Shown here: piece by piece, positions 6,956 to 42,943 of the stretch
Layout of the letters: the number at the start of each line of letters is the position of its first letter
Numbering within the stretch: position 1 is the first letter of the stretch
DNA from: Kordiimonas sp. SCSIO 12610
Lineage (GTDB): Bacteria > Pseudomonadota > Alphaproteobacteria > Sphingomonadales > Kordiimonadaceae
DNA: 64,000 bases
NCBI RefSeq assembly: GCF_024398015.1
Contig: NZ_CP073747.1
Coordinates: 1-64,000, forward strand
Reading direction: 5' to 3'
The notes under the pieces: model-generated
The model's database searches: none
Seen by the model: the letters and a program-made list of their open reading frames with translations, nothing else
Told to the model about the DNA's origin: nothing
Made by a program: the position numbers and the translations under genes

Positions 6956-7915
6956 CTACTGACTATTTTTCAATTCCGCAGGATCAAAGCTATAGGCCTT
7001 ACTACAGAACTGACAATCAACCGTGATTGCACCATCCACAATCATATGCTCAATATCGCTATCACCAAATTGGCTTAAAACACCAAACAGTTTTTCCCGC
7101 GAACATCGACAGCTTGCATCCAGATGCATTGCATCAAACACCCGCACACCATCTTCGTTAAACAAACGATATAGGATCTGATCCAGATCAAGTTGTGCAT
7201 CCAGAAGTTCTTCGCTTTTTACACTGTGCATCAACACAGACGCGCGGTTCCACTGTTCTTCAGTTTCACGGTCTAGCAGGCGTTCCTGACCTTCTTCACC
7301 GCGTGATAAGTGCTGAACCATCAAGCCACCAGCACGCCAATTCCCCGTAACAGGGTCACGGTCACACACCATACTCATTTCAGTGGGTGTTTGCTCTGAA
7401 TTCATAAAATAGGAACGCGCAACATCGCTTAAGCTTTCGCCCGTGATTTCCACAATTCCCTGATAGCGCTCCATGTCAGCACCTTGATCAATTGTAAGTG
7501 CTAAATACCCGCTTTTCGATCCAATAAGCCCGTGGAAACTTGGGTTTTTACCGTAAGTCGCATATTTAACTTCATCGATTTGCGCATATCCGCGTAAGTG
7601 ACCAATGCCATCATCCTTAATCTCATAGTCCGCAACAACCATCGGAACAGGTCCCCCGGTTTTCGCTTGTATGGTGACGATACCATTATATTTCATTATA
7701 GAGCCAAGAAGCGCCGTCAGGGTTAAGAACTCACCGAGGATACGCGCAACCGGGTCAGGATAGTCATGAGCAGACAAAATTTGATCAACAACGGTACCAA
7801 GCCTAACTGCACGGCCACGAACATCCATCCCTTCGATTTGAAAGGGCCTTACTTCATTATCGCGGCTATCTACAGGGTCAGTAATTATGATAGGGCTATC
7901 TGTCATAACATTCAT
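6956..7915 (-). CDS. hslO: Redox-regulated chaperone Hsp33
   Basis: Cytosolic holdase activated by oxidative unfolding through a zinc-binding switch. In this 319-residue protein the four zinc cysteines are present as C269-R-C271 and C301-Q-F-C304 near the C-terminus, matching the CxC...CxxC pattern. The N-terminal chaperone domain carries the family segments around LGEFLTLTALLGSIMKYNG. A second ATG at codon 4 is an alternative start. It lies 29 bp after argF, a common alphaproteobacterial arrangement with argD and argF. Confidence 0.95.
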   Translation of the reverse strand: MNVMTDSPIIITDPVDSRDNEVRPFQIEGMDVRGRAVRLGTVVDQILSAHDYPDPVARILGEFLTLTALLGSIMKYNGIVTIQAKTGGPVPMVVADYEIKDDGIGHLRGYAQIDEVKYATYGKNPSFHGLIGSKSGYLALTIDQGADMERYQGIVEITGESLSDVARSYFMNSEQTPTEMSMVCDRDPVTGNWRAGGLMVQHLSRGEEGQERLLDRETEEQWNRASVLMHSVKSEELLDAQLDLDQILYRLFNEDGVRVFDAMHLDASCRCSREKLFGVLSQFGDSDIEHMIVDGAITVDCQFCSKAYSFDPAELKNSQ

Positions 7916-7944
7916 TCACTTTGTTCATATTTAAGCGGGTGCTT

Positions 7945-8889
7945 TTATATCACCCCAAGGCACCAAGCAAGGATTGCTTTTTGCGCATGTAATCTGTTTT
8001 CGGCTTCATCCCAAACAACAGATTGCGGACCGTCAATTACGCTATTGGTTACTTCTTCGCCGCGGTGCGCCGGCAGACAATGCAAAAAGATTGCATCATT
8101 GTGTGCCTTTGCCATCAAACTGTCATTCACTTGAAAGGGTTCTAACGCTTTTAATTTGGCACCCGTTCGGTCATCGCCCATAGATATCCAGGTATCAGTA
8201 AAGACCGCATTGGCACCACCAACGGCGTCGGATGCGTTATCAACAACCCTAACGTCACCACCCGCAGCCTTAGCCCAGTTTAACACATCTGTCTCAGGCA
8301 TCAAATTATCAGGGCATCCAAGTGTCAATGAGAAGTCAAACTGTACAGCAGCTTCAATAAGGGAAGTAGCAACGTTATTCCCGTCACCAACCCAGGCGAT
8401 TTTCTTACCCTGAACAGGGCCCAAATGCTCTTCTAACGTCAAAACATCAGCCATAAGCTGACAGGGGTGCGAACGATCAGTAAGTGCATTAATAACAGGA
8501 ACTTCGCCCTCTTCTGCAAGTTCCTCCACCGCAGCATGCGTGTTCGCCCGCAGCATAATAGCGTCCACATAGCGGCTCATAACACGCGCGGTATCCGCAA
8601 TGGTTTCACCGCGGCCCAGTTGCATGCTGGAACCTTGAAGGATGATTGATGATCCCCCTAATTGCTGCATCGCCATTTCAAAACTGATACGAGTACGTGT
8701 AGAAGATTTCTCAAACACCATTGCCAGTGTTTTACCGCTAAGCGGTGCACCTTCATCAACCGCACCCTTAGACATTCCTTCTCGTCGGTTTTTCCATAGT
8801 TTTGCCGTATCGAGAATATGCCTAAGTGTTTCCTTTGGAACATCCTTTAGGTCAAGGAAATGCTGGTAATGCGAAGCTGCAACGCCCAT
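7945..8889 (-). CDS. argF: Ornithine carbamoyltransferase
   Basis: Makes citrulline from ornithine and carbamoyl phosphate in arginine synthesis. The 314-residue protein has the carbamoyl-phosphate motif STRTR at residues 63-67, HPCQ at 141-144 and the ornithine-site motif HCLP at 270-273. The start ATG 8889 follows an AAAGAAAG stretch. It is downstream of argD (gap 41 bp) and upstream of hslO, on the same strand, so it is probably co-transcribed with both. All catalytic motifs are intact. Confidence 0.96.
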   Translation of the reverse strand: MGVAASHYQHFLDLKDVPKETLRHILDTAKLWKNRREGMSKGAVDEGAPLSGKTLAMVFEKSSTRTRISFEMAMQQLGGSSIILQGSSMQLGRGETIADTARVMSRYVDAIMLRANTHAAVEELAEEGEVPVINALTDRSHPCQLMADVLTLEEHLGPVQGKKIAWVGDGNNVATSLIEAAVQFDFSLTLGCPDNLMPETDVLNWAKAAGGDVRVVDNASDAVGGANAVFTDTWISMGDDRTGAKLKALEPFQVNDSLMAKAHNDAIFLHCLPAHRGEEVTNSVIDGPQSVVWDEAENRLHAQKAILAWCLGVI

Positions 8890-8930
8890 TTACAAATAAC
8901 TTTCTTTATCAATAGCCGGGTGTATAAGCT

Positions 8931-10124
8931 TTATACACCAGGTACTCCATTTTTAGCCCAGTCCGTGAAGGCTTCATCAAAAATTGATACGGCCTCATCA
9001 ATATGACTTTCATCTAGAATAAGTGGCGGCAACATACGAATCACACTATCGCCAGCAGGGGCCGGGCAGAAACCACGAGAGATCAAATCAGTAACAGCAG
9101 GGCGTGTCGGTACATCAGGCAATCGGATACCTGCCATAAGGCCACTACCACGAACTTCACTGACGAAATTGCTATGGCGCTGCTGAAGTCCCTGAAGGCG
9201 TGCAAACAGCATTTCACCCATCTTAACAACATGCTCGAAAAATTCTGGCTTTAGCATTTCATCAAGAACAGCATTACCAACGGCCATGGCAAGCGGGTTA
9301 CCACCATATGTAGTACCGTGCGTACCAACCACCATACCTGACGCAGCCTCTTCTGTCGCAAGGCAAGCACCCATTGGGAAACCGCCCCCAATGCCCTTGG
9401 CAGCTGTCACGATATCAGCATTAATTCCGGCCCACTCATGCGCCCACAATTTACCCGTACGGCCCATACCACATTGGATTTCATCAAAAACAAGAAGCAA
9501 GTTATTTTCATCGGCTATTTCGCGTAGACCACGGAGTGTCTCCAAGGGCAGCGGGCGAATACCACCTTCACCCTGAACCGGTTCCACCATGATACCGCCC
9601 GTTTCAGGGGTAATCGCTGCTTTAACGGCTTCCAAATCACCAAAAGGCACAACATCAAACCCATCAGGAACAGGTTCAAACCCTGCAATCATTTTTTCTT
9701 GCCCAGCGGCAGCAATGCCCGCGAGCGTGCGGCCATGGAACGCAGATGCCATAGTGATCATCCGGTAACGACCCTTATTGCCTTTATCATGATGATATTT
9801 GCGCACCATCTTGATCGCGCATTCAATCGATTCAGCACCTGAGTTTGTGAAAAAGACTGTATCTGCAAAACTGGCGTCAATCAGCCTTTGGGCCAGGCGC
9901 TCACCTTCAGGGATTTGATAGATATTTGACGTATGCCACAACTTATCAGCTTGATCTTTTAGAGCATTAACAAGTGTCGGGTGGCAATGGCCCAAGCACA
10001 TCACACCGATACCCGAATAGAAATCAAGATACTTCTTACCATTTGTATCATACATATACATGCCTTCGGCACGTTCAAAAGCGACTGGCATTCTTGCATA
10101 TGTTGGCAAAAGAGGTGTGATCAT
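8931..10124 (-). CDS. argD: Acetylornithine / N-succinyldiaminopimelate aminotransferase
   Basis: PLP-dependent class III aminotransferase of arginine synthesis; members often also serve the succinyl-diaminopimelate step of lysine synthesis. 397 residues. The PLP lysine is K243 in TAAKGIGGGFP; the cofactor-phosphate region is TNSGAESIECA near 93-103 and the DEIQCGMGRTGK stretch is at 214-225. A good ribosome site (CAGGAG) precedes ATG 10124. It heads the argD-argF-hslO group. The 216 bp upstream holds a modest GC hairpin (about 10213-10236) but no gene. Confidence 0.95.
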   Translation of the reverse strand: MITPLLPTYARMPVAFERAEGMYMYDTNGKKYLDFYSGIGVMCLGHCHPTLVNALKDQADKLWHTSNIYQIPEGERLAQRLIDASFADTVFFTNSGAESIECAIKMVRKYHHDKGNKGRYRMITMASAFHGRTLAGIAAAGQEKMIAGFEPVPDGFDVVPFGDLEAVKAAITPETGGIMVEPVQGEGGIRPLPLETLRGLREIADENNLLLVFDEIQCGMGRTGKLWAHEWAGINADIVTAAKGIGGGFPMGACLATEEAASGMVVGTHGTTYGGNPLAMAVGNAVLDEMLKPEFFEHVVKMGEMLFARLQGLQQRHSNFVSEVRGSGLMAGIRLPDVPTRPAVTDLISRGFCPAPAGDSVIRMLPPLILDESHIDEAVSIFDEAFTDWAKNGVPGV

Positions 10125-32381: not shown

Positions 32382-33281
32382 TCAGCCGCCCTCATATTTG
32401 GAAAAATCGAGCGTCAATAAGTCTGCAAACCGATTGACGGCGACCGAATTTGACCGACCTGTCAACTGCGTTAGTTGCAGCACGGGCCTGGCAACATCAC
32501 GGGTGCTAACGGTAACAGAGGTCATTTCAGGCAAAATAATGCTATCGGCATGATCGAAGCCCATTTCAAAACCTATGGCTTCATTGGCCGCAATTTCATC
32601 ACGAGCAAATAATAGTTCACTTTCCACCGCCGGACGAAGTTTAATCCCATGCTTGGATGCAGCAGCGTCCAGGTGAGCGCGCAGAAAACCATTTCGCGGC
32701 ATAATAAGCGGGAAATAAATCAGATCATTTATCCGAATTTCCTGTTTGGTTGCCAAGCTATGCTCGGGGGCCATGATCGCATTTATAAATAACGGTGCGG
32801 TCGCAACCGGATGCAGTATAGGGTCTGCTTTGGGGTTCAATACATAAGCGAGATCAATCTCATACTCGCTCAACATATCCACCATACTATCGCCGTCAGC
32901 GCGTATGATCTCAAAGTTAACACGTTGATGTTCTTTACGGTAAGCAGCGATTGCGGCCGATAATTTGGCACCCGGCAAATCATATTCAACACCAATCCGA
33001 ATGTTACCCCATCGTTCACCCTTTAAATCCTCAATTACAGAGCGCACACGCTCCAAATCAGCAATCTGCCGCCGAGCGTGCTGAATGAACAATTCCCCTG
33101 CTGCACTCAGTCTGACCCCTTTGGCTGTACGATCAAAAAGTGGGGCTCCAAGCTCGTCCTCCAAAGCCAATAGCCTGCGATTAAGCGCAGACGGTGTGAT
33201 CGCTATCCTTTCAGCGGCACGACGTATTGAACCCGCACGGGCAATATTATCCACAAGTTCAAGTGTAAACTGGTGTCGCAT
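32382..33281 (-). CDS. LysR-family transcriptional regulator of the nir locus
   Basis: 299 residues: N-terminal winged HTH (IRRAAERIAITPSALNRRLLALEDELGAPLFDRT, about residues 17-50) and a periplasmic-binding-like effector domain. The frame is open to a GTG at 33326, but a dyad operator spans 33301-33331, so I choose ATG 33281 (MRHQFTLELVDNIARAGSIR), which also fits LysR length. It is divergent from nirB and probably controls it and itself. The effector (nitrite, cyanate or another N signal) is unknown. Confidence 0.88.
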   Translation of the reverse strand: MRHQFTLELVDNIARAGSIRRAAERIAITPSALNRRLLALEDELGAPLFDRTAKGVRLSAAGELFIQHARRQIADLERVRSVIEDLKGERWGNIRIGVEYDLPGAKLSAAIAAYRKEHQRVNFEIIRADGDSMVDMLSEYEIDLAYVLNPKADPILHPVATAPLFINAIMAPEHSLATKQEIRINDLIYFPLIMPRNGFLRAHLDAAASKHGIKLRPAVESELLFARDEIAANEAIGFEMGFDHADSIILPEMTSVTVSTRDVARPVLQLTQLTGRSNSVAVNRFADLLTLDFSKYEGG

Positions 33282-33300
33282 TTCTCGATCGCATCCCAAT

Positions 33301-33331
33301 CTATAGTGGTGCATTTTCGGCAACACTATAG
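33301..33331. promoter_or_regulatory. Dyad operator between lysR and nirB
   Basis: CTATAGTGGTG (33301-33311) and CAACACTATAG (33321-33331) form an 11-bp inverted repeat with one mismatch and a 9-bp centre. It lies 20 bp upstream of the chosen lysR start and 95 bp before nirB. This size and place suit a LysR recognition site (T-N11-A-like dyad). A second, looser pair, ATCAAAAT (33332-33339) and ATTTTGAT (33393-33400), brackets the nirB leader. Confidence 0.6.
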
Positions 33332-33425
33332 ATCAAAATAAGCACGAGACGCAATCACTCAAATCCGTTTAACTCGTTTTGGGGCGAGAATCATTTTGAT
33401 GGTGCGACAAGTCGGAGTGAGCGGA

Positions 33426-35888
33426 ATGACAGATAAAACAAACAAGGAAAACCTTGTAATCATTGGAAACGGCATGGCTCTAGGCAAGATGCTGGAGCGC
33501 TTATTTGATATTGCGCCCAACCATTTCAATATTACAATTTTCAACGCGGAACCCCGCACCAATTACAATCGCATCATGTTATCACCCGTTCTCTCAGGTG
33601 AAAAATCATACGAAGATATTATTACCCACAATGACGATTGGTACAGTGAGCACCAGATCACTTTGCACAAAGGCACAAAAGTAACCGAGATCGATAGGCG
33701 AGCGAAAACCGTTACTGCAGACAACGGCATAACCACTGCATATGACAAGCTGGTTGTTGCAACGGGATCTAATCCTATCATTCTTCCTATCGAAGGTAGC
33801 GATCTTTCTGGTGTTTTAACATACCGTGATCTCGATGATGTCCAAGCAATGCTCGCTTTTGCCAAAAGCAAAAAATCTGCAACTGTTATTGGTGGTGGCT
33901 TGCTCGGCTTGGAAGCATCAGCAGGCCTGAAGGCTCAAGGCCTTGATGTAACCGTATTACACTTGATGCCAACCCTTATGGAGCGCCAACTAGATACGGC
34001 CGCAGGACACCTTCTTCAAAAAGCAATAACAGACCTTGGCATTAAAGTTATCACTGAGGCGAATACAAAGCGCATCCTCGAAAAAGACGGGCATGTATGC
34101 GGTGTTGAATTGGACGATGGCACAGTCATAAACTGTGATTTTACCGTTATGGCTATCGGCATCAGGCCCAATATCGCATTAGCTGAACACGCAGGCATTG
34201 ACAGAAATCGCGGCATAATTGTCGACGATATGATGCTAACATCCGATCCGGATATCTATGCGCTTGGTGAATGTGTTGAGCACCGCGGATTATCATACGG
34301 CCTGGTTGCCCCCCTTTATGAAATGGCTGACGTACTCGCAAAAAATCTTACTGGCACGGCCGCAAGCTACCAAGGCTCAGTAACAGCAACCAAATTGAAA
34401 GTAACCGGCATTGATCTATATTCAGCCGGAGATTTTTCTGACTCTGAGGGCCGCGAAGAAATCGTTCTGCGTGACGCATCAGCAAATATATATAAACGAC
34501 TTGTTCTTGAAGATAATCGTATTGTCGGTGTTGTGCTCTACGGAGATACGAGCGATGGCCCTTGGTTTTTTGATCTTCTCAAAAAACAAGCCTCGATCGC
34601 AGAAATGCGTGATACCTTAATCTTTGGCCAATCTTACCAAGGGGAAGGGATTGCAGATCCGCTTGCCGCTGTATTAACCCTCCCTGATGACGCAGAAATT
34701 TGCGGCTGCAACGGCGTTTGCAAGGGAGAGATTGTTGCAAACATTACCAAAAAAGGTCTAACAAACCTCGACGGGGTCCGCAGCCATACCAAAGCATCAG
34801 CGTCTTGCGGCACCTGCACAGGGTTGGTCGAGAAATTACTGCAGATTACATTAGGTGATACATACAATCCTGATGCGATCCAGCCGATGTGTAGCTGTAC
34901 CCATTTGGGCCATACCGAAGTCCGTCGCCTGATTAAATCCAAAGAACTGAAATCAATCCCAGAACTGATGCAAGCGCTTGAGTGGAAAACTTCTTGTGGC
35001 TGCGCCAAATGCCGGCCTGCGCTTAATTATTATCTCGTGAGCGATTGGCCAGATGAATATGCCGATGACTATCAATCACGTTTCATAAATGAGCGCGTTC
35101 ACGCAAACATTCAAAAAGATGGCACCTATTCTGTTGTCCCGCGCATGTGGGGCGGTATGACATCATCCAAAGAATTGCGGGCAATCGCGGATGTTGTCGA
35201 TAAATTCAATATCCCTGCTGTTAAATGTACGGGCGGTCAGCGGATCGATATGCTGGGCATTCAGAAAGAAGACCTGCCAGCCGTATGGGCTGACCTTGGA
35301 AAAGCCGGTTTTGTATCAGGTCAGGCCTATGCAAAGGGCCTTCGCACAGTCAAAACCTGTGTTGGCACCGATTGGTGCAGATTTGGAACACAGGATTCCA
35401 CTGGACTTGGGATCAAGCTCGAAAAATTCATGTGGGGTTCCTGGACGCCTGCTAAGCTTAAATTAGCGGTATCAGGCTGCCCGCGTAATTGTGCCGAGGC
35501 CACATGCAAGGATATCGGCATCATCTGTATCGATTCTGGCTATGAAATTCACTTCGCCGGTGCCGCCGGCATGGATATCAAAGGTACGGAAATTCTGGGT
35601 GTTGTCTCCACCGAAGAGGAAGTGATGGAACATGTCGTTGCCCTCACTCAAATGTACCGCGAACAAGGCCTCTATTTAGAGCGCATCTACAAATGGGCCA
35701 AACGTATCGGAATTGCCGAAATCAAAGAGCAGATCATGAACAATGCTCAAAAGCGCAAAGCATATTTTGAACGTTTTGTTTTCAGTCAAAAATTTGCACA
35801 GGTCGACCCATGGAGCGAACGCGTATCCGGCAAAGATAAGCACGAATTTAAACCTATGGCGCAGCTACCGCTCGTCGCTGCTGAATAA
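33426..35888 (+). CDS. nirB: Assimilatory nitrite reductase [NAD(P)H], large subunit
   Basis: Cytosolic flavo-sirohaem enzyme that reduces nitrite to ammonium; 820 residues from ATG 33426, preceded by GGAG nine bases upstream (the frame is open from a TTG at 33396). Order: FAD/NAD(P)H domain (VIIGNGMALG; VIGGGLLGLEA), BFD-like 2Fe-2S module (C426, C428, C461, C464), a second cysteine-rich CSC...CGCAKC segment typical of NirB, then the sulfite/nitrite reductase domain with sirohaem-4Fe-4S ligands C645, C651, C685 and C689. It heads nirB-nirD-FNT-kinase-cynS-porin. Confidence 0.96.
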   Translation: MTDKTNKENLVIIGNGMALGKMLERLFDIAPNHFNITIFNAEPRTNYNRIMLSPVLSGEKSYEDIITHNDDWYSEHQITLHKGTKVTEIDRRAKTVTADNGITTAYDKLVVATGSNPIILPIEGSDLSGVLTYRDLDDVQAMLAFAKSKKSATVIGGGLLGLEASAGLKAQGLDVTVLHLMPTLMERQLDTAAGHLLQKAITDLGIKVITEANTKRILEKDGHVCGVELDDGTVINCDFTVMAIGIRPNIALAEHAGIDRNRGIIVDDMMLTSDPDIYALGECVEHRGLSYGLVAPLYEMADVLAKNLTGTAASYQGSVTATKLKVTGIDLYSAGDFSDSEGREEIVLRDASANIYKRLVLEDNRIVGVVLYGDTSDGPWFFDLLKKQASIAEMRDTLIFGQSYQGEGIADPLAAVLTLPDDAEICGCNGVCKGEIVANITKKGLTNLDGVRSHTKASASCGTCTGLVEKLLQITLGDTYNPDAIQPMCSCTHLGHTEVRRLIKSKELKSIPELMQALEWKTSCGCAKCRPALNYYLVSDWPDEYADDYQSRFINERVHANIQKDGTYSVVPRMWGGMTSSKELRAIADVVDKFNIPAVKCTGGQRIDMLGIQKEDLPAVWADLGKAGFVSGQAYAKGLRTVKTCVGTDWCRFGTQDSTGLGIKLEKFMWGSWTPAKLKLAVSGCPRNCAEATCKDIGIICIDSGYEIHFAGAAGMDIKGTEILGVVSTEEEVMEHVVALTQMYREQGLYLERIYKWAKRIGIAEIKEQIMNNAQKRKAYFERFVFSQKFAQVDPWSERVSGKDKHEFKPMAQLPLVAAE

Positions 35889-35904
35889 CGAGCGGAGAAA
35901 CATC

Positions 35905-36243
35905 ATGAATGCAACAACAAAAAACTGGATACCAATAGGGTCATTGCTCGATATACCACGGCGCGGCGCACGCTGTGTGAAAAGCGGCGATACAACAATC
36001 GCCCTTTTCCGAACGCAGGATGATCAGGTATTTGCTCTAGAAGATAAGTGTCCGCACAAGGGCGGTCCACTCAGTAATGGCATCGTGCATGATGGCTGTG
36101 TCACCTGCCCATTACATAACTGGGTCATTTCACTCAGTAACGGTGAAGCACAAGGGGCCGATTCCGGCAAAACTGCTTCATACCCAATCAAAATGGATGG
36201 CGACACCATCCTTATTGACATCGTCAGCGCACGGTCTTCCTGA
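35905..36243 (+). CDS. nirD: Nitrite reductase small subunit (Rieske type)
   Basis: 112-residue partner of NirB with a Rieske-like fold. Unlike many NirD proteins, which lack the cluster ligands, this one keeps all four: C49 and H51 in KCPHKGGPL, C68 and H71 in CPLHNW, so it can bind a 2Fe-2S cluster. ATG 35905 follows GAGCGGAGAAA, 16 bp after the nirB stop; a longer frame from 35743 lies within nirB and is rejected. Co-transcribed with nirB. Confidence 0.93.
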   Translation: MNATTKNWIPIGSLLDIPRRGARCVKSGDTTIALFRTQDDQVFALEDKCPHKGGPLSNGIVHDGCVTCPLHNWVISLSNGEAQGADSGKTASYPIKMDGDTILIDIVSARSS

Positions 36244-36276
36244 CCAATCAACTCTTATCATTAAAAGGAAGCATTT

Positions 36277-37098
36277 ATGTCTTACTTAGCACCCACTGAA
36301 TTTGTCACCAAAATGATCGATGCCGGCGAAGCCAAAGTCTTCATGAGTACAAAAGATACCCTTATTCGCGCCTTTATGGCAGGGGCAATTCTGGCACTTG
36401 CCGCCGCATTTGCGATTACAATCACTGTCCAAACCGGGCAACCGCTCGTTGGTGCCGTTTTGTTTCCCGTTGGGTTTTGCCTTCTCTATCTTTTGGGGTT
36501 TGATCTCCTGACCGGTGTCTTCACGCTTGTTCCCCTCGCCTTAATGGATAAACGCCCAGGGGTGACAACCGGCGGTGTGCTTAGAAACTGGTGGTTGGTT
36601 TTCATTGGTAATTTTGGCGGTGCTTTTACGGTCGCGATATTCATGGCCATTATTTTCACCTTCGGATTCTCAGAGGCACCAAACGCAGTTGGCCAAAAAA
36701 TTGGAACAATTGGCGAAGGTAGAACTGTCGGCTACGCAGACCACGGGATAGCTGGCATGCTGACACTCTTTATTCGCGGTGTACTGTGCAACTGGATGGT
36801 TTCAACAGGTGTGGTCGCGGCCTTTATGTCAACATCAGTTTCAGGCAAGATCATTGCTATGTGGATGCCAATCATGCTGTTTTTCTACATGGGCTTCGAG
36901 CATTCAATCGTAAATATGTTCCTTTTCCCATCAGGTTTGCTTCTTGGCGGTAACTTCTCGGTGATGGATTACCTACTATGGAACGAAATTCCAACCGTTA
37001 TCGGTAACCTTCTTGGTGGTCTGACATTTGTGGGCCTGACACTATATTCAACCCACTATAAAACTGGTGCCAAACGCGTTCAGGCACCTGCTGAATAA
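36277..37098 (+). CDS. Formate/nitrite transporter (FNT) family channel, NirC-like
   Basis: 273-residue membrane protein with six spans. Family segments include FMAGAILALAAAFA, NWWLVFIGNFGGAF, FIRGVLCNWMV and GFEHSIVNMF with the central histidine. The nirBD context makes nitrite the likely substrate (NirC-like) rather than formate. AAAAGGAAG precedes the ATG. A pyrimidine-loop hairpin sits between this gene and the kinase gene. Confidence 0.92.
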   Translation: MSYLAPTEFVTKMIDAGEAKVFMSTKDTLIRAFMAGAILALAAAFAITITVQTGQPLVGAVLFPVGFCLLYLLGFDLLTGVFTLVPLALMDKRPGVTTGGVLRNWWLVFIGNFGGAFTVAIFMAIIFTFGFSEAPNAVGQKIGTIGEGRTVGYADHGIAGMLTLFIRGVLCNWMVSTGVVAAFMSTSVSGKIIAMWMPIMLFFYMGFEHSIVNMFLFPSGLLLGGNFSVMDYLLWNEIPTVIGNLLGGLTFVGLTLYSTHYKTGAKRVQAPAE

Positions 37099-37111
37099 AA
37101 GAGTTACTAAC

Positions 37112-37169
37112 GGCTGATTGCTCCACCCTCCCCTCCTCTCTCTCCTCAGAGCAATCAGCCAAACTTTTT
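37112..37169 (+). terminator. Intercistronic hairpin with a 25-nt G-free loop, then T-run
   Basis: A perfect 12-bp stem (GGCTGATTGCTC 37112-37123 with GAGCAATCAGCC 37149-37160) encloses a 25-nt loop made almost only of C and T with two A and no G, then AAACTTTTT. It lies 13 bp past the FNT stop and 19 bp before the kinase start. It may be an attenuator that lowers expression of the downstream genes, or a binding site for an RNA-binding antiterminator. Confidence 0.6.
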
Positions 37170-37179
37170 GTCGGAATCT

Positions 37180-38916
37180 ATGATGCAATGTGAATTAACA
37201 ATCTCGCTCGGGCAATATTCGAGCGCAGGCCCTAAAGAGTGTAATCAAGACTTTTACGGCGCTGTGATCCCAAACAAGGCCACTCTTGCCCTCAGAGGGA
37301 TCGCATTATCAATTGCAGACGGTATCTCAAGCTCGCCAGTAGCGCATATTGCATCACAAACAGCGGTCGGTAGTTTTCTATCGGATTATTATTCTACCCC
37401 TGACAGCTGGACTGTTAAAAAAGCAGCAAGCCGGGTAATTTCAGCGACAAACGCATGGCTATATTCCGAAACAAAACGCTCACAGGAATTTGATCCTGAT
37501 CGTGGCTTCGTATCTACCTTTAGCACATTGATTTTAAAGGCACGACAGGCGCATTTGTTCCATATTGGCGATAGCCGGATATATCGTATCGCCAATGACA
37601 GGTTAGAACAATTAACAGAAGACCACCGGGTCATTTTAAATTCACAGCAAAACTATTTAGGCCGTGCCCTTGGTATGGCCCCCAATATTGAAATTGACTA
37701 TACAAAAACCAGTGTCTCTGTCGGCGATATCTTTCTGATGACAACGGACGGTGTCCATGAGTTCATAGAAGCTGCGATCTTTAAAAGCCTTCTTTTCAAA
37801 CATCATGATAATCTTGAAACCGCAGCCAAGGCGATTGTCGAGCACGCCATTGATAATGGTGCGGATGACAATTTAACCATTCAAATCGCCCGTATTGAAA
37901 GCTTGCCAGATTCTAACATTCAGGAAATCGTATCCGACATTAAGCTGAAACCACTTCGATCGATCCCGGAAATTGGCGACATCATTGATGGATGGGAGAT
38001 CACGGCGGATATCAATCGCTCTAGCCGAAGCCATATATTCAAAGCGAAAGAAAAAAAGAGCAATAAGATAGCAGCCCTTAAAGTCCCATCGATTGATATG
38101 CGTGAACAAGAAACCGCATTACAGCGAATGGCACTCGAAGAATGGGTTGCAAAGCGCCTTACGAACCAGCACTTGCTTAGACCTGTCACTACAGAGACAC
38201 CGCGGTCTGCACTTTATACAACAATGGAATATGTGGCAGGCACCAGCCTGACGACATGGATGGCAGATAACCCTGCGCCAACCCTGGAAAAGACAACTGC
38301 AATTATTTCCCAAATCGCTACTGGCTTGCAAGCCATGCACCGAAAGCAAATCCTGCATCAGGACTTACGCCCTAATAATGTTATGATTTCAGAAAACGGC
38401 CATGTCACCCTTATCGATTATGGTGCCGCAAAAATAGCAGGCATTGACGAAGCGTTTAATTATAATATGCCTGTCGATACTAATGAGCGCATTCTAGGGA
38501 CTTTTCAGTTTACCGCACCAGAATATTTCCGCGGCGAAGACGGTACATATCAATCCGATATCTATTCCCTTGGGGTTATAGCATATCAGTTGCTCACAGG
38601 TGGCTTACCCTATGGCTCAGCAATGGCGCGGTCGCGTTCACTCAATCAACAAAAGAAAATCAAATACATACCGGCAGCAGATATTTCTGAAAATGTTCCC
38701 GACTTTGTTGATGCAGCAATAAGAAAGGCTGTAGAGCCAGACCCCAACAATCGATATCAGGAAATGTCAGAATTTCTTGCTGATCTTCGTACACCAAACC
38801 TCTCACTACCCCATTATGGCAAGCGCCCCCTTGCAGAGGCAAACTCCACACTCTTTTGGAAACTTGTCAGCCTTGCATTGTTGGTCTTGCTATTGCTCCA
38901 ACATGTTCTCACCTGA
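37180..38916 (+). CDS. Fused PP2C-type phosphatase / Ser-Thr protein kinase with C-terminal membrane anchor
   Basis: 578 residues. The PP2C domain (about 1-235) has ADGISSS, GDSRIYRI, TTDGVHEF and DDNLTIQI, covering the metal-binding Asp positions. The kinase domain (about 255-520) keeps the Lys in AALKVP and catalytic D395 in HQDLRPNN, with DYG (413-415) for DFG, but its glycine loop is degenerate (INRSSRSHIF). A single C-terminal helix rich in Leu (about 555-575) anchors it. ATG 37180 follows GGA; a TTG at 37168 is less likely. Such fusions occur in nitrate/nitrite loci of other proteobacteria; targets are unknown. Confidence 0.88.
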   Translation: MMQCELTISLGQYSSAGPKECNQDFYGAVIPNKATLALRGIALSIADGISSSPVAHIASQTAVGSFLSDYYSTPDSWTVKKAASRVISATNAWLYSETKRSQEFDPDRGFVSTFSTLILKARQAHLFHIGDSRIYRIANDRLEQLTEDHRVILNSQQNYLGRALGMAPNIEIDYTKTSVSVGDIFLMTTDGVHEFIEAAIFKSLLFKHHDNLETAAKAIVEHAIDNGADDNLTIQIARIESLPDSNIQEIVSDIKLKPLRSIPEIGDIIDGWEITADINRSSRSHIFKAKEKKSNKIAALKVPSIDMREQETALQRMALEEWVAKRLTNQHLLRPVTTETPRSALYTTMEYVAGTSLTTWMADNPAPTLEKTTAIISQIATGLQAMHRKQILHQDLRPNNVMISENGHVTLIDYGAAKIAGIDEAFNYNMPVDTNERILGTFQFTAPEYFRGEDGTYQSDIYSLGVIAYQLLTGGLPYGSAMARSRSLNQQKKIKYIPAADISENVPDFVDAAIRKAVEPDPNNRYQEMSEFLADLRTPNLSLPHYGKRPLAEANSTLFWKLVSLALLVLLLLQHVLT

Positions 38917-38945
38917 TTTTCAACCCATTTTATAAGGATATTCTT

Positions 38946-39389
38946 ATGCTCACTAAAGCAGACGTTACAGATATGATTTATGACATTAAACGATCAAAAG
39001 GGCTGTCGTGGGCAGCTATGGCCGATGCTGTTGGCCTTAGTGAGGTGTTCGTAACATCGGCTTGCCTTGGCATGAATTCCCTTACTGAGCCCAAAGCCAA
39101 AGCCCTCGTTGATTTTCTTGGCCTGCCTAATGAGGCCACTGTGGTGCTTACAGAATTTCCAACCAAATCATTCGATAAAACCGTTCCCACAGATCCTTGT
39201 ATTTACCGTTTCTATGAAATTGTCGGCGTATATGGCCAGACCCTCAAAGAACTTATTCAGGAAAAAGGGGGTGACGGCATCATGAGCGCAATCGACTTTG
39301 ATATGAGCGTTGAAAAACTCCCGAACCCCAAAGGGGACCGAATTGAAGTTCGGATGAGTGGTAAATTCCTGAGCTACTCAGCGTGGTAA
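38946..39389 (+). CDS. cynS: Cyanate hydratase (cyanase)
   Basis: Decamer enzyme converting cyanate and bicarbonate to ammonia and CO2. 147 residues: N-terminal HTH-like domain (SWAAMADAVGLSEVFVTSA) and C-terminal catalytic domain with R88 and E91 in YRFYEIVGVYG and S114 in IMSAIDFDM, all three active-site residues. ATG 38946 follows AAGGA; the longer frame from 38856 lies in the kinase gene. It is 29 bp after the kinase and 11 bp before the porin, so clearly in the same operon. No carbonic anhydrase (cynT) is adjacent. Confidence 0.95.
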   Translation: MLTKADVTDMIYDIKRSKGLSWAAMADAVGLSEVFVTSACLGMNSLTEPKAKALVDFLGLPNEATVVLTEFPTKSFDKTVPTDPCIYRFYEIVGVYGQTLKELIQEKGGDGIMSAIDFDMSVEKLPNPKGDRIEVRMSGKFLSYSAW

Positions 39390-39400
39390 GGGCAACGATT

Positions 39401-40615
39401 ATGAAGAATTATTTTCTTTTTACGACGGTCATATCGACGCTAACGCTATCTTCTCCTCTTATCGCGGAGGATAGTACAATTGATGATATTATTACTAACG
39501 CTACTATTCTGGCGGACGGTCGTATTCGCTATGAATTTGCTGATTTTCAAGGATTTGAACGCGACGCCAACGCCCTAACATTTCATGGCCGGTTCGGGTT
39601 TGAAACAGCAAAATATAAAGATTTCTCGCTTTTGGTTGAAGGTGACTTTACCCGTAGTCTTGGCATAGATAATTTTAACAGCACAACGAATGGACAAACC
39701 GAATTTCCTGTTATTGCTGACCCTAACTCCGAGCGGTTGAACCGCTTTCAACTGAATTATACCGGACTGGCTGGCACCAAAATCTCTATCGGTCGTCAAC
39801 GTATCAAATTGGATGATGATCGTTTTATCGGTAATGTTGGTTTCAGGCAAAATGAACAAACCTATGACGCTGTGCGCTTTACAAACACATCGATAGAAAA
39901 CCTTTCACTCGATTATACATATGCATGGCAAGTGAACCGGATCTTTGGCAGCAACTCAGTCAATGGACGTACAGACGCCAACAACCATTTTATCAATGCA
40001 AAATACAAATCGTCTATTGGTGATTTTACAGCTTATGCCTATCTGATTGATTTAGATGCTTTCCAGAATTTATCAAACCAGACCTTCGGCGGAAATTTCA
40101 GCACAAAGCAGAAAGTAACGGATACCAGCACGGTATTTTTTAAAGCTGAATACGCAACCCAAAAAGACTTTGGCAACAGCCCAGATAATTTTAGTCTTGA
40201 TTATTACCTCATTGAGGGTGGAACAACGGTCGACAACCTAACCCTTAAAGCTCGTTACGAGTCCCTGGAAGGTGATGGTAATCGCGGATTTGCAACTCCC
40301 CTCGCAACACTTCATAAATTTCAGGGGTTTGCTGATGTTTTCCTAAGCACACCAGCAAACGGGCTCGAAGATTTACAATTCAGCGCAGCCTATAGTTTCA
40401 AAGATGTCTTTGGCTTGGGGCCAGTGAAGGTGACAGCAGCCTATCATGACTTTAACAGTGAAAATATTGACTTTTCGCTTGGAAACGAGCTTGATTTTAC
40501 TCTAAGTGTCCCGTTGACAAAGGGGGTTAACCTAGCTGTTAAATATGCGGATTTTAATAGTGACAGCTTACGCAACGTGAACAGATTTTTCTTTGCTATT
40601 GCCTTTAAATATTAG
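39401..40615 (+). CDS. Outer-membrane porin-like protein (alginate-export-like beta-barrel)
   Basis: 404 residues with a Sec signal peptide (MKNYFLFTTVISTLTLSSPL, cleavage after LIA) and many alternating amphipathic strands, ending in an aromatic FAIAFKY as outer-membrane barrels do. Landmarks resemble the alginate-export/porin group: GRFGFETAKYKDFSLLVEGD and ISIGRQRIKLDDDRFIGNVG. ATG 39401 is chosen over an upstream GTG (39383) because of the signal peptide. Last gene of the nir operon, so it may admit nitrite, nitrate or cyanate; that is inference. Confidence 0.82.
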   Translation: MKNYFLFTTVISTLTLSSPLIAEDSTIDDIITNATILADGRIRYEFADFQGFERDANALTFHGRFGFETAKYKDFSLLVEGDFTRSLGIDNFNSTTNGQTEFPVIADPNSERLNRFQLNYTGLAGTKISIGRQRIKLDDDRFIGNVGFRQNEQTYDAVRFTNTSIENLSLDYTYAWQVNRIFGSNSVNGRTDANNHFINAKYKSSIGDFTAYAYLIDLDAFQNLSNQTFGGNFSTKQKVTDTSTVFFKAEYATQKDFGNSPDNFSLDYYLIEGGTTVDNLTLKARYESLEGDGNRGFATPLATLHKFQGFADVFLSTPANGLEDLQFSAAYSFKDVFGLGPVKVTAAYHDFNSENIDFSLGNELDFTLSVPLTKGVNLAVKYADFNSDSLRNVNRFFFAIAFKY

Positions 40616-40625
40616 CTACGCTCAT

Positions 40626-40664
40626 TCGCCAATCTGACGGTAACCTTTTTCGTCAGATTGGCGA
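40626..40664 (+). terminator. 14-bp perfect hairpin ending the nir operon
   Basis: TCGCCAATCTGACG (40626-40639) pairs perfectly with CGTCAGATTGGCGA (40651-40664) around an 11-nt loop that contains five T. It starts 11 bp after the porin stop. There is no T-run after the stem, so it is a hairpin-only 3' end or needs a factor. Confidence 0.6.
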
Positions 40665-40909: not shown

Positions 40910-42037
<1,128 letters not shown>

Positions 42038-42109
42038 ATATATTTGCAACGCTCACATCGCCCATCATCATATGTTTGAAGGTGGTCATTTTTAAGGAAG
42101 TGCGCCCCT

Positions 42110-42943
42110 ATGGAAAAAATATCTTCGGTCAGAAGTTTTGGCGGTACCCAATCTATTTATAAGCATACAAGCAACACGCTACGCTGTGATATGCAGTTTG
42201 CTGTCTATATGCCCGAGCATAAGAAAGGCGCCACGCTACCTGTATTATACTGGTTGTCTGGTTTGACCTGTACTGAGGAAAACTTCATCACCAAAGCAGG
42301 GGCACAGCGCGTTGCAAATGAACTTGGCATCGTCATCATAGCACCAGACACTTCACCGCGTGGTGATGGTGTTCCCGATGATGCTGAAGCTGCATATGAT
42401 TTTGGCTTAGGGGCTGGTTTTTATGTGGATGCAACGCAAGAAGCCTTCAACAAGCACTATAAAATGTATTCTTATGTTACTTCTGAATTACCAGCATTGA
42501 TAGAAGCAGAGTTTCCAGTTGATCCATCGCGAACAGGTGTCTTTGGCCATTCAATGGGGGGACACGGCGCGCTTACCATTGCGCTTAAGAACCCGGAAAA
42601 ATATAAAACTGTTTCCGCATTTTCGCCGATCGTATCACCGATTAACTGCCCTTGGGGTCAAAAGGCGCTGGGTGGATATATTGGTGCAGATCAAGCTGCA
42701 TGGCGTGTGTATGATGCCTGTGCACTTATTAATGATGGTGCGCGTGTTGATGATATTCTTGTTGATCAGGGATCGTCAGATAATTTTCTTGAGGAACAGC
42801 TTAAACCAGAGCTTTTAAAAGTAGCCTGTGAGAAAGCTGGCCAAAGCCTGACCTTGCGCATGCAGGAAGGCTATGACCATTCCTATTATTTTATCGCCAG
42901 CTTTATCGAAGATCATCTAAGGTGGCATGCGGAACGCCTGTAA
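42110..42943 (+). CDS. fghA: S-formylglutathione hydrolase
   Basis: Esterase-D-family alpha/beta hydrolase that releases formate and glutathione. 277 residues. The nucleophile S148 is in GHSMGGHG, with D224 (DQGSSDNF) and H257 (YDHSYYF) completing the triad; LTCTEENFITKAGAQR is a family signature. AAGGAAG precedes the ATG. It is the second step after adhC, and formate dehydrogenase is not in the window. A strong hairpin follows. Confidence 0.95.
   Translation: MEKISSVRSFGGTQSIYKHTSNTLRCDMQFAVYMPEHKKGATLPVLYWLSGLTCTEENFITKAGAQRVANELGIVIIAPDTSPRGDGVPDDAEAAYDFGLGAGFYVDATQEAFNKHYKMYSYVTSELPALIEAEFPVDPSRTGVFGHSMGGHGALTIALKNPEKYKTVSAFSPIVSPINCPWGQKALGGYIGADQAAWRVYDACALINDGARVDDILVDQGSSDNFLEEQLKPELLKVACEKAGQSLTLRMQEGYDHSYYFIASFIEDHLRWHAERL

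Follow-up and report, generated by a model that had tools for sequence, protein, structure and literature searches.

Why should a bacterial operon for nitrite reduction carry a cyanase, and on what does the phosphatase–kinase fusion encoded between its channel and its cyanase act? The locus that raises these questions lies in a stretch of 64,000 nt from Kordiimonas sp. SCSIO 12610 (contig NZ_CP073747.1, positions 1 to 64,000; hereafter the window, to which coordinates refer), in which genes were called from open reading frames (ORFs) and profile searches. Both agree on the order nirB-nirD-FNT-PPK-cynS-porin, all on the + strand, with a divergent LysR gene on the − strand, where PPK is our working name for the PP2C-kinase fusion; the intergenic gaps from nirB to the porin gene, taken from the coordinates, are 16, 33, 81, 29 and 11 bp. 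An earlier reading of the same DNA (the original prediction) had described this very layout, with one strand, gaps of 11–81 bp and a divergent LysR gene. We propose that the operon most likely serves the assimilation of nitrite and cyanate, a view that rests on its well-defined enzymes, and that PPK most likely switches the adjoining FNT channel, as pairing, co-inheritance and intact active sites suggest. To the complete proposal, namely reversible gating, by a tail-anchored kinase/phosphatase, of an FNT through which nitrite and probably cyanate enter, we would give an even chance.

Relatives of PPK (E ≤ 1e-40) were present in 18 of the 385 genomes searched in the class and in 128 of the 398 searched in the phylum. 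We examined the window locus together with 100 of the 164 non-window places among the matches listed, taken from high to low similarity, a choice that biases the ratio of FNT-type to NarK-type loci. PPK adjoins an FNT gene in 52 of these 101 loci, a NarK gene in 40 and neither within 1 kb in 9, and it shares the strand of its partner in 50/52 FNT-type and 33/40 NarK-type loci. In a second, independent set of 80 loci, retrieved with an FNT-type query and hence biased to FNT, PPK adjoins FNT in 77, NarK in 1 and neither in 2, at least two of these being on short contigs. The FNT-PPK pair occurs in Alpha-, Beta-, Gamma- and Zetaproteobacteria and in Campylobacterota (Sulfurovum, Sulfurimonas), and its carriers include Bradyrhizobium, Methylobacterium, Azospirillum, Stutzerimonas, Pseudomonas, Variovorax and Candidatus Competibacter; plasmids of Methylobacterium nodulans, Azospirillum lipoferum and Cupriavidus pinatubonensis hold FNT-PPK alone, and a Thioclava plasmid holds narK-PPK. 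A common neighbour was sought for 62 solitary FNT-PPK loci, and the groups other than FNT and PPK found in at least 4 loci were dominated by Bradyrhizobium and the genus group g267; one 13-locus group (e.g. 7765-9576 on the − strand of locus L053) is an antisense frame over the pair itself. FNT-PPK is a mobile pair of genes that can accompany nirB, cynS, both or neither. The views that the arrangement is special to this organism, or that the kinase is a curiosity within a nitrite operon, are not supported.

PPK (37180..38916, + strand; the ORF opens with TTG at 37168) combines an N-terminal PP2C phosphatase domain (PF13672), a Ser/Thr kinase domain (PF00069) and a C-terminal transmembrane helix, and an AlphaFold2 model (mean pLDDT 82.9, pTM 0.74) contains the phosphatase, the kinase and a C-terminal helix at 556–577. 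Both active sites appear intact, with the metal-binding Asp residues, the VAIK Lys, the catalytic Asp/Asn and the DFG Asp in place; the kinase Lys, Asp, Asn and DFG Asp are conserved in 56/56 FNT-type and 42/42 NarK-type PPK rows, as are the PP2C aspartates of the GD, TDG and DN motifs. FNT-type PPKs carry HQDLRP in the catalytic loop. Foldseek matched PknB-type kinases (E 2.2e-17) and the phosphatase PstP (1txo, E 2.8e-14), folds that PPK shares with the PASTA kinases PknB/Stk1 and the phosphatases Stp1/PstP; PPK differs from them in being a single chain with the phosphatase first and a C-terminal membrane helix, and in its sub-cut-off scores. PPK as a PASTA kinase was rejected (168 bits against 450 for NF033483, and PASTA unmatched in Pfam), and the phosphatase family model NF033484 gave 113 bits with a cut-off of 230. 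In a PPK tree (n = 107; rows below 85% of the profile left out), the partner label changes 9 times, where shuffles give 40.6 changes, and for the FNT label there are 3 changes; this tree and the FNT tree below were built quickly, have some long branches and carry no support values other than SH-aLRT. PPK lineages follow transporter type, a sister lineage being paired with NarK transporters.

The window FNT (36277..37098, + strand; PF01226, 211.5 bits) is the sole FNT of the genome. In a tree of 116 FNTs, from which one fragment (L200) was left out, all 57 PPK-linked FNTs fall into one clade of 61 rows (SH-aLRT 98). Escherichia coli NirC and FocA both lie outside this clade, and the window FNT scored 47 against 293 bits with the NirC model NF008595, so it was not taken as an orthologue of either. 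All 57 linked FNTs carry F79, L90, T91, F202, H209 and V212 (FocA numbering), the window FNT having F79, L90, F202 and V212; sister FNTs without PPK have A or G at 90. The window and all 57 linked rows thereby show the pore pattern F/Y79, V/L90, F202, V212 of the NirC-alpha subfamily, a membership assigned by residues; that subfamily, as set out in parts of Mukherjee et al. 2017 (PMC5525234), is often linked to nitrite reductase. What distinguishes the clade described here is its linkage with PPK and, in many cases, with cynS; the main text of PMC5525234 contains neither ‘cyanate’ nor ‘kinase’. The cytoplasmic tails are also conserved: a C-terminal Y.TH..T motif is present in 56/57 linked FNTs, in 4/4 unlinked clade members and in 2/55 outside the clade (second set 74/76), and an N-terminal M[SA]T[RK]D[TA] motif in 47/57, 2/4 and 1/55 (second set 69/76). 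The window FNT ends in YSTHYKTGAKR. Both motifs are candidate phosphosites only. As a separate observation, several FNT matches in families f203, f226, f237 and f219 are open frames of ~480–505 codons, over the normal FNT length, and are possibly fusions or extensions.

With these elements a mechanism can be proposed. Nitrite and cyanate would pass the outer membrane through the porin and the inner membrane through FNT, after which NirBD would convert nitrite to ammonium and CynS would form ammonia and CO2 from cyanate and bicarbonate. Anchored at the membrane through its C-terminal helix, PPK would phosphorylate the cytoplasmic tails of the adjacent FNT, the best candidate sites being the Thr of the C-terminal Y.TH..T and the Ser/Thr of the N-terminal MST[RK]DT, and its PP2C domain would remove the same phosphate, making the gating reversible. 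The channel could then close when there is too much of the toxic anion or of ammonium, and open again when the cell needs nitrogen. FNT as the substrate, the sites, the open state, the signal read by PPK and the passage of cyanate through this FNT are all features that we infer. For NitM, a nitrite channel of the FNT family in the cyanobacterium Synechococcus, passages of a study (PMC4390861) argue that unregulated nitrite uptake through an FNT is lethal and that a reversible control acting through the cytoplasmic C-terminus must exist; the window differs in encoding a candidate switching enzyme next door.

Several observations weigh against this proposal. The Y.TH..T motif is kept in all four clade members without an adjacent PPK; therefore the motif needs no adjacent PPK, and it may be structural. 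The glycine loop of the PPK kinase is degenerate and glycine-poor. The nine PPKs without FNT or NarK within 1 kb count here as well, as do the 35 of 77 second-set pairs that have neither nirB nor cynS near. In two genomes (G425, G670) the FNT adjacent to cynS differs from the FNT adjacent to PPK. Moreover, NitM was uninhibited by 1 mM cyanate, nitrate or formate, according to the same portions of PMC4390861.

The enzymes of the operon are well defined. The 820-aa product of nirB (33426..35888, + strand, ATG at 33426; TIGR02374 903 bits, cut-off 578), the large subunit of an NADH-dependent assimilatory nitrite reductase, has C-x5-C at 645 and C-x3-C at 685, the cysteine pattern for siroheme and 4Fe-4S, and nirD (35905..36243, + strand; TIGR02378 96.5, cut-off 74.65) encodes the Rieske-type small subunit; both models above cut-off and the cysteine pattern place the pair in NirBD. 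CynS (38946..39389, + strand; NF002773 195, cut-off 150; TIGR00673 147.6, cut-off 113.3) belongs to the cyanases, with R88/E91/S114 spaced like the active-site residues R96/E99/S122 named in an excerpt of PMC7305129. The porin (39401..40615, + strand; ORF opening with GTG at 39383) is of a kind seen in nas operons. No NCBIfam model matched it at E ≤ 0.001, and its 21.6 bits against PF13372 (alginate export) are under the 25.2 cut-off; by tblastn its relatives include one in a Blastomonas plasmid, between a nitrate transporter gene and nirB and with NasT- and NasS-like genes and a nitrate reductase, and one in Catenovulum, an ‘alginate export’ gene near narK-PPK-nirBD and a nitrate reductase.

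The genome, searched by profiles as one contig of 3,501,651 bases, yielded no molybdenum nitrate reductase, the defining component of a canonical nas operon; the sole PF00384 match falls in an ORF whose sequence, together with NuoF- and NuoH-like neighbours, led us to read it as NuoG. PF13379 (NrtA/NasS/CynA type) had 0 matches genome-wide, with 12/14 control genomes positive, and the NarK model TIGR00886 had two matches only, of 28 and 24 bits (cut-off 311.7), so that an intact nas cluster elsewhere in the genome was rejected; ANTAR PF03861 (NasT) had 0 matches in the genome and also 0 in the control genomes, and is hence uninformative. Thus nitrate is an unlikely substrate, and the earlier view that nitrite and cyanate are likelier than nitrate, based on the lack of nitrate reductase and nitrate transporter in the window, holds genome-wide within the reach of the profiles. 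A Cyn operon (CynABD transport and CynR) is likewise not indicated, given the PF13379 result for CynA-type binding proteins and the LysR protein, which was rejected as CynR with 86 bits against a cut-off of 277 (NF008416).

The original prediction as a whole is partly supported. In a genome of the same order as the window (L063) the genes run porin-FNT-PPK-cynS-nirB-nasA, with the porin preceding FNT, and in Roseibium (L251) nirB-FNT-PPK-cynS-nasA. Since porin relatives sit in nas loci and both of these loci carry nasA, the Kordiimonas locus looks like a nas-type operon without nitrate reductase. It may accordingly be the product of ordinary decay, in which a nas operon lost its nitrate reductase and kept the neighbours without any special coordination. 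This account, which is compatible with gating of FNT by PPK, has a real prospect of being right, though we would put it somewhat below an even chance; the nas-type porin and the two nasA-bearing gene orders speak for it, but it covers the gene set of the window and not the FNT-PPK pairing or the link to cynS across families.

This link is a property of the FNT-type loci. Among the 101 PPK loci, cynS is near in 17/52 of FNT type, 0/40 of NarK type and 0/9 unpartnered, and 12 of the 17 cynS-FNT-PPK loci have no nirB within ~6 kb; in the second set cynS is near 15 of 77 pairs, 12 of them without nirB. In 4/80 second-set loci (L265, L276, L281 and L299, from Teredinibacter, a Gallionellales MAG, Sulfurovum and a gammaproteobacterial MAG; MAG, metagenome-assembled genome) cynS stands between FNT and PPK, and in an Acinetobacter plasmid it is divergent from FNT-PPK with no annotated nirB nearby. 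Two of the four clade members without adjacent PPK (L218, L219) adjoin cynS. Across the 398 genomes, cynS lies within 4 kb of 17/55 PPK-linked FNTs compared with 2/95 other FNTs listed. At the level of genomes, cynS is carried by 39/55 with the FNT-PPK pair and 31/343 others; without the pair, it is carried by 12/72 with PPK and 7/60 with FNT (Fisher p for genomes with the pair, 6e-10 against PPK-only and 6e-11 against FNT-only, genomes being treated as independent). Due to the fact that this assumption is false for genomes, genus counts (25/34 vs 9/58) and family counts (20/22 vs 4/17) are given as well, with no species tree; the genome-level counts use 115 of 150 FNT-positive genomes (150 FNT places listed), and the genus counts all 150. 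Two pairs are cut by a contig end (G108, G466), and counting them as pairs makes the association slightly stronger (41/57 vs 29/341; PPK-only 10/70, FNT-only 5/58). Of 71 cynS places, 51 have neither gene of the pair within 4 kb; therefore most cyanases are not tied to the FNT-PPK pair, and a shared life-style is a possible cause of the genome-level signal. On the FNT tree cynS linkage changes 11 times, at least 6 of them by well-supported branches, and it has therefore been gained or lost repeatedly.

From this genomic association, FNT probably passes cyanate. An FNT gene adjoining cynS is also known from nitrifiers: FNT as cyanate importer is a hypothesis of Spang 2012 and Palatinszky 2015, cited with genomic evidence only in sections of PMC10753782, and nirC lies downstream of cynS in Nitrospirales according to part of PMC12342949. 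Within those portions of the two papers a kinase/phosphatase is unmentioned, whereas one is present in the pair described here. For Pseudomonas pseudoalcaligenes, an extract of PMC6627978 suggests that nitrate/nitrite transporters may import cyanate.

The same association could arise if FNT passed nitrite only, with CynS detoxifying or scavenging cyanate that is internal or otherwise imported, and a shared nitrogen-starvation regulon bringing the genes together. NitM, an FNT, was judged nitrite-specific (PMC4390861, in part), and nirB-linked and cynS-linked FNTs are identical at ten tabulated pore positions and intermixed on the tree. However, 12 of the 101 loci join cynS to FNT-PPK with no nirB in reach, cynS can stand inside the pair, and the NarK-type loci, which are equally nitrogen-related, never have cynS; we therefore regard a nitrite-only channel as possible but unlikely.

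What PPK acts upon can be asked in the same way. The original prediction left open whether the kinase tunes transport or enzyme activity; transport is favoured, as PPK adjoins a transporter gene in 92/101 loci, often without nirB, and enzyme activity less so. A target other than the transporter, such as nitrite reductase, a nas regulator or a general nitrogen-status protein, would fit the presence of nirB in the fetched stretch of 48/101 loci (17/52 FNT-type, 28/40 NarK-type and 3/9 unpartnered) and the PPKs that lack a transporter beside them. Pseudomonas aeruginosa ppkB (PA1782), which we take to be the same PP2C-kinase fusion, likely belongs to the NarK-type lineage, and thus differs from the window PPK with its FNT-type HQDLRP loop. 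It resembles the window gene in standing within a nitrate/nitrite assimilation series, nasA, ppkB and nirB being PA1783, PA1782 and PA1781 in the sections considered of a biofilm paper (PMC6954232), and this series would also suit a non-transporter target. Yet 53/101 loci have no nirB near, on which a nirB-specific PPK was rejected, and the PPK phylogeny tracks transporter type with few changes, so that a mainly non-transporter role is improbable. Neighbours tested for the unpartnered PPKs were genes for tetrapyrrole methylase, a MoaA-like protein, phosphofructokinase, pyrophosphatase, DctM and malic enzyme; two of these PPKs (L134, L136) adjoin a phosphofructokinase gene, one of them (L136) also a pyrophosphatase gene, and this lineage may have switched partner.

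That FNT supplies bicarbonate, the co-substrate of cyanase, instead of cyanate is very improbable: the best match of the window FNT among solved structures is indeed the bicarbonate channel LCIA of Chlamydomonas (9v2a, E 8.4e-26), ahead of FocA (8.2e-19), but at least half of the pairs lack a nearby cynS, and nirB is independent of bicarbonate.

Gating of FNT by PPK might extend to other lineages: we tentatively suggest, at somewhat less than an even chance, that the large FNT clade forms a nitrite/cyanate gate with its own membrane-held kinase/phosphatase, that the sister kinases do likewise for NarK, and that reversible phosphorylation is a general switch for these transporters. The enzymes and the channel subfamily are known, and the widespread regulatory pairing goes beyond the original prediction. 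Among open-licence papers, searched by title and start of abstract, no study of an FNT-kinase/phosphatase pairing was found, which is weak evidence of absence. The pair offers concrete candidates, namely the FNT clade for cyanate entry without CynABD and PPK for the switching of FNT after its synthesis (compare the parts of PMC10753782 and PMC4390861 cited above), and the candidate switch comes with a predicted site in the FNT tail. If true, many bacteria of soil and sea would control their nitrogen uptake by reversible phosphorylation in addition to the means already known, and a function could be given to the protein widely annotated as ‘bifunctional protein-serine/threonine kinase/phosphatase’; the pair also suggests how cells might safely admit two toxic nitrogen sources.

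The control elements of the locus are consistent with a single regulon, as originally predicted: one strand and short gaps, LysR and a palindrome before nirB, and no internal promoter-like site before cynS and the porin gene all point this way. A separate promoter for these last two genes had been named as a counter-argument; no sigma-70-like site was found on the + strand from the PPK end to the porin start, which is weak evidence, since the region has no more of these sites than chance would give (10 found vs 13.3 expected). The LysR-family regulator (32382..33326, − strand; PF00126 and PF03466; likely start 33281) has relatives divergent to nirB-FNT-PPK in loci L227 and L232; a weaker relative (65 bits) is divergent to cynS-FNT-PPK in L097. 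The inverted repeat ATCTATAGTGGTGC-N7-GCAACACTATAGAT at 33299..33333 (14 bp, 93%), between LysR and nirB, is a candidate LysR operator; its core CTATAGTG-N15-CACTATAG has one perfect copy genome-wide, the next best, at 3277852, having 2 mismatches, and 8/100 window shuffles reach one match to the core at ≤3 mismatches. A comparable long repeat was sought in the L227, L232 and L097 spacers and was not found. A terminator-like hairpin lies in the nirB leader at 33373-33388; since terminator-like sites in this region do not depart from chance level and the genome gave no NasT match, leader control is unproven.

A perfect inverted repeat of 14 bp at 40626..40664, 3′ of the porin gene, marks the probable end of the operon; it has no T-run behind it and the terminator search did not call it. 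Downstream, 40925-42943 holds a gene for a class III alcohol/S-(hydroxymethyl)glutathione dehydrogenase (TIGR02818) and an ORF that, by reading of its sequence only, resembles S-formylglutathione hydrolase.

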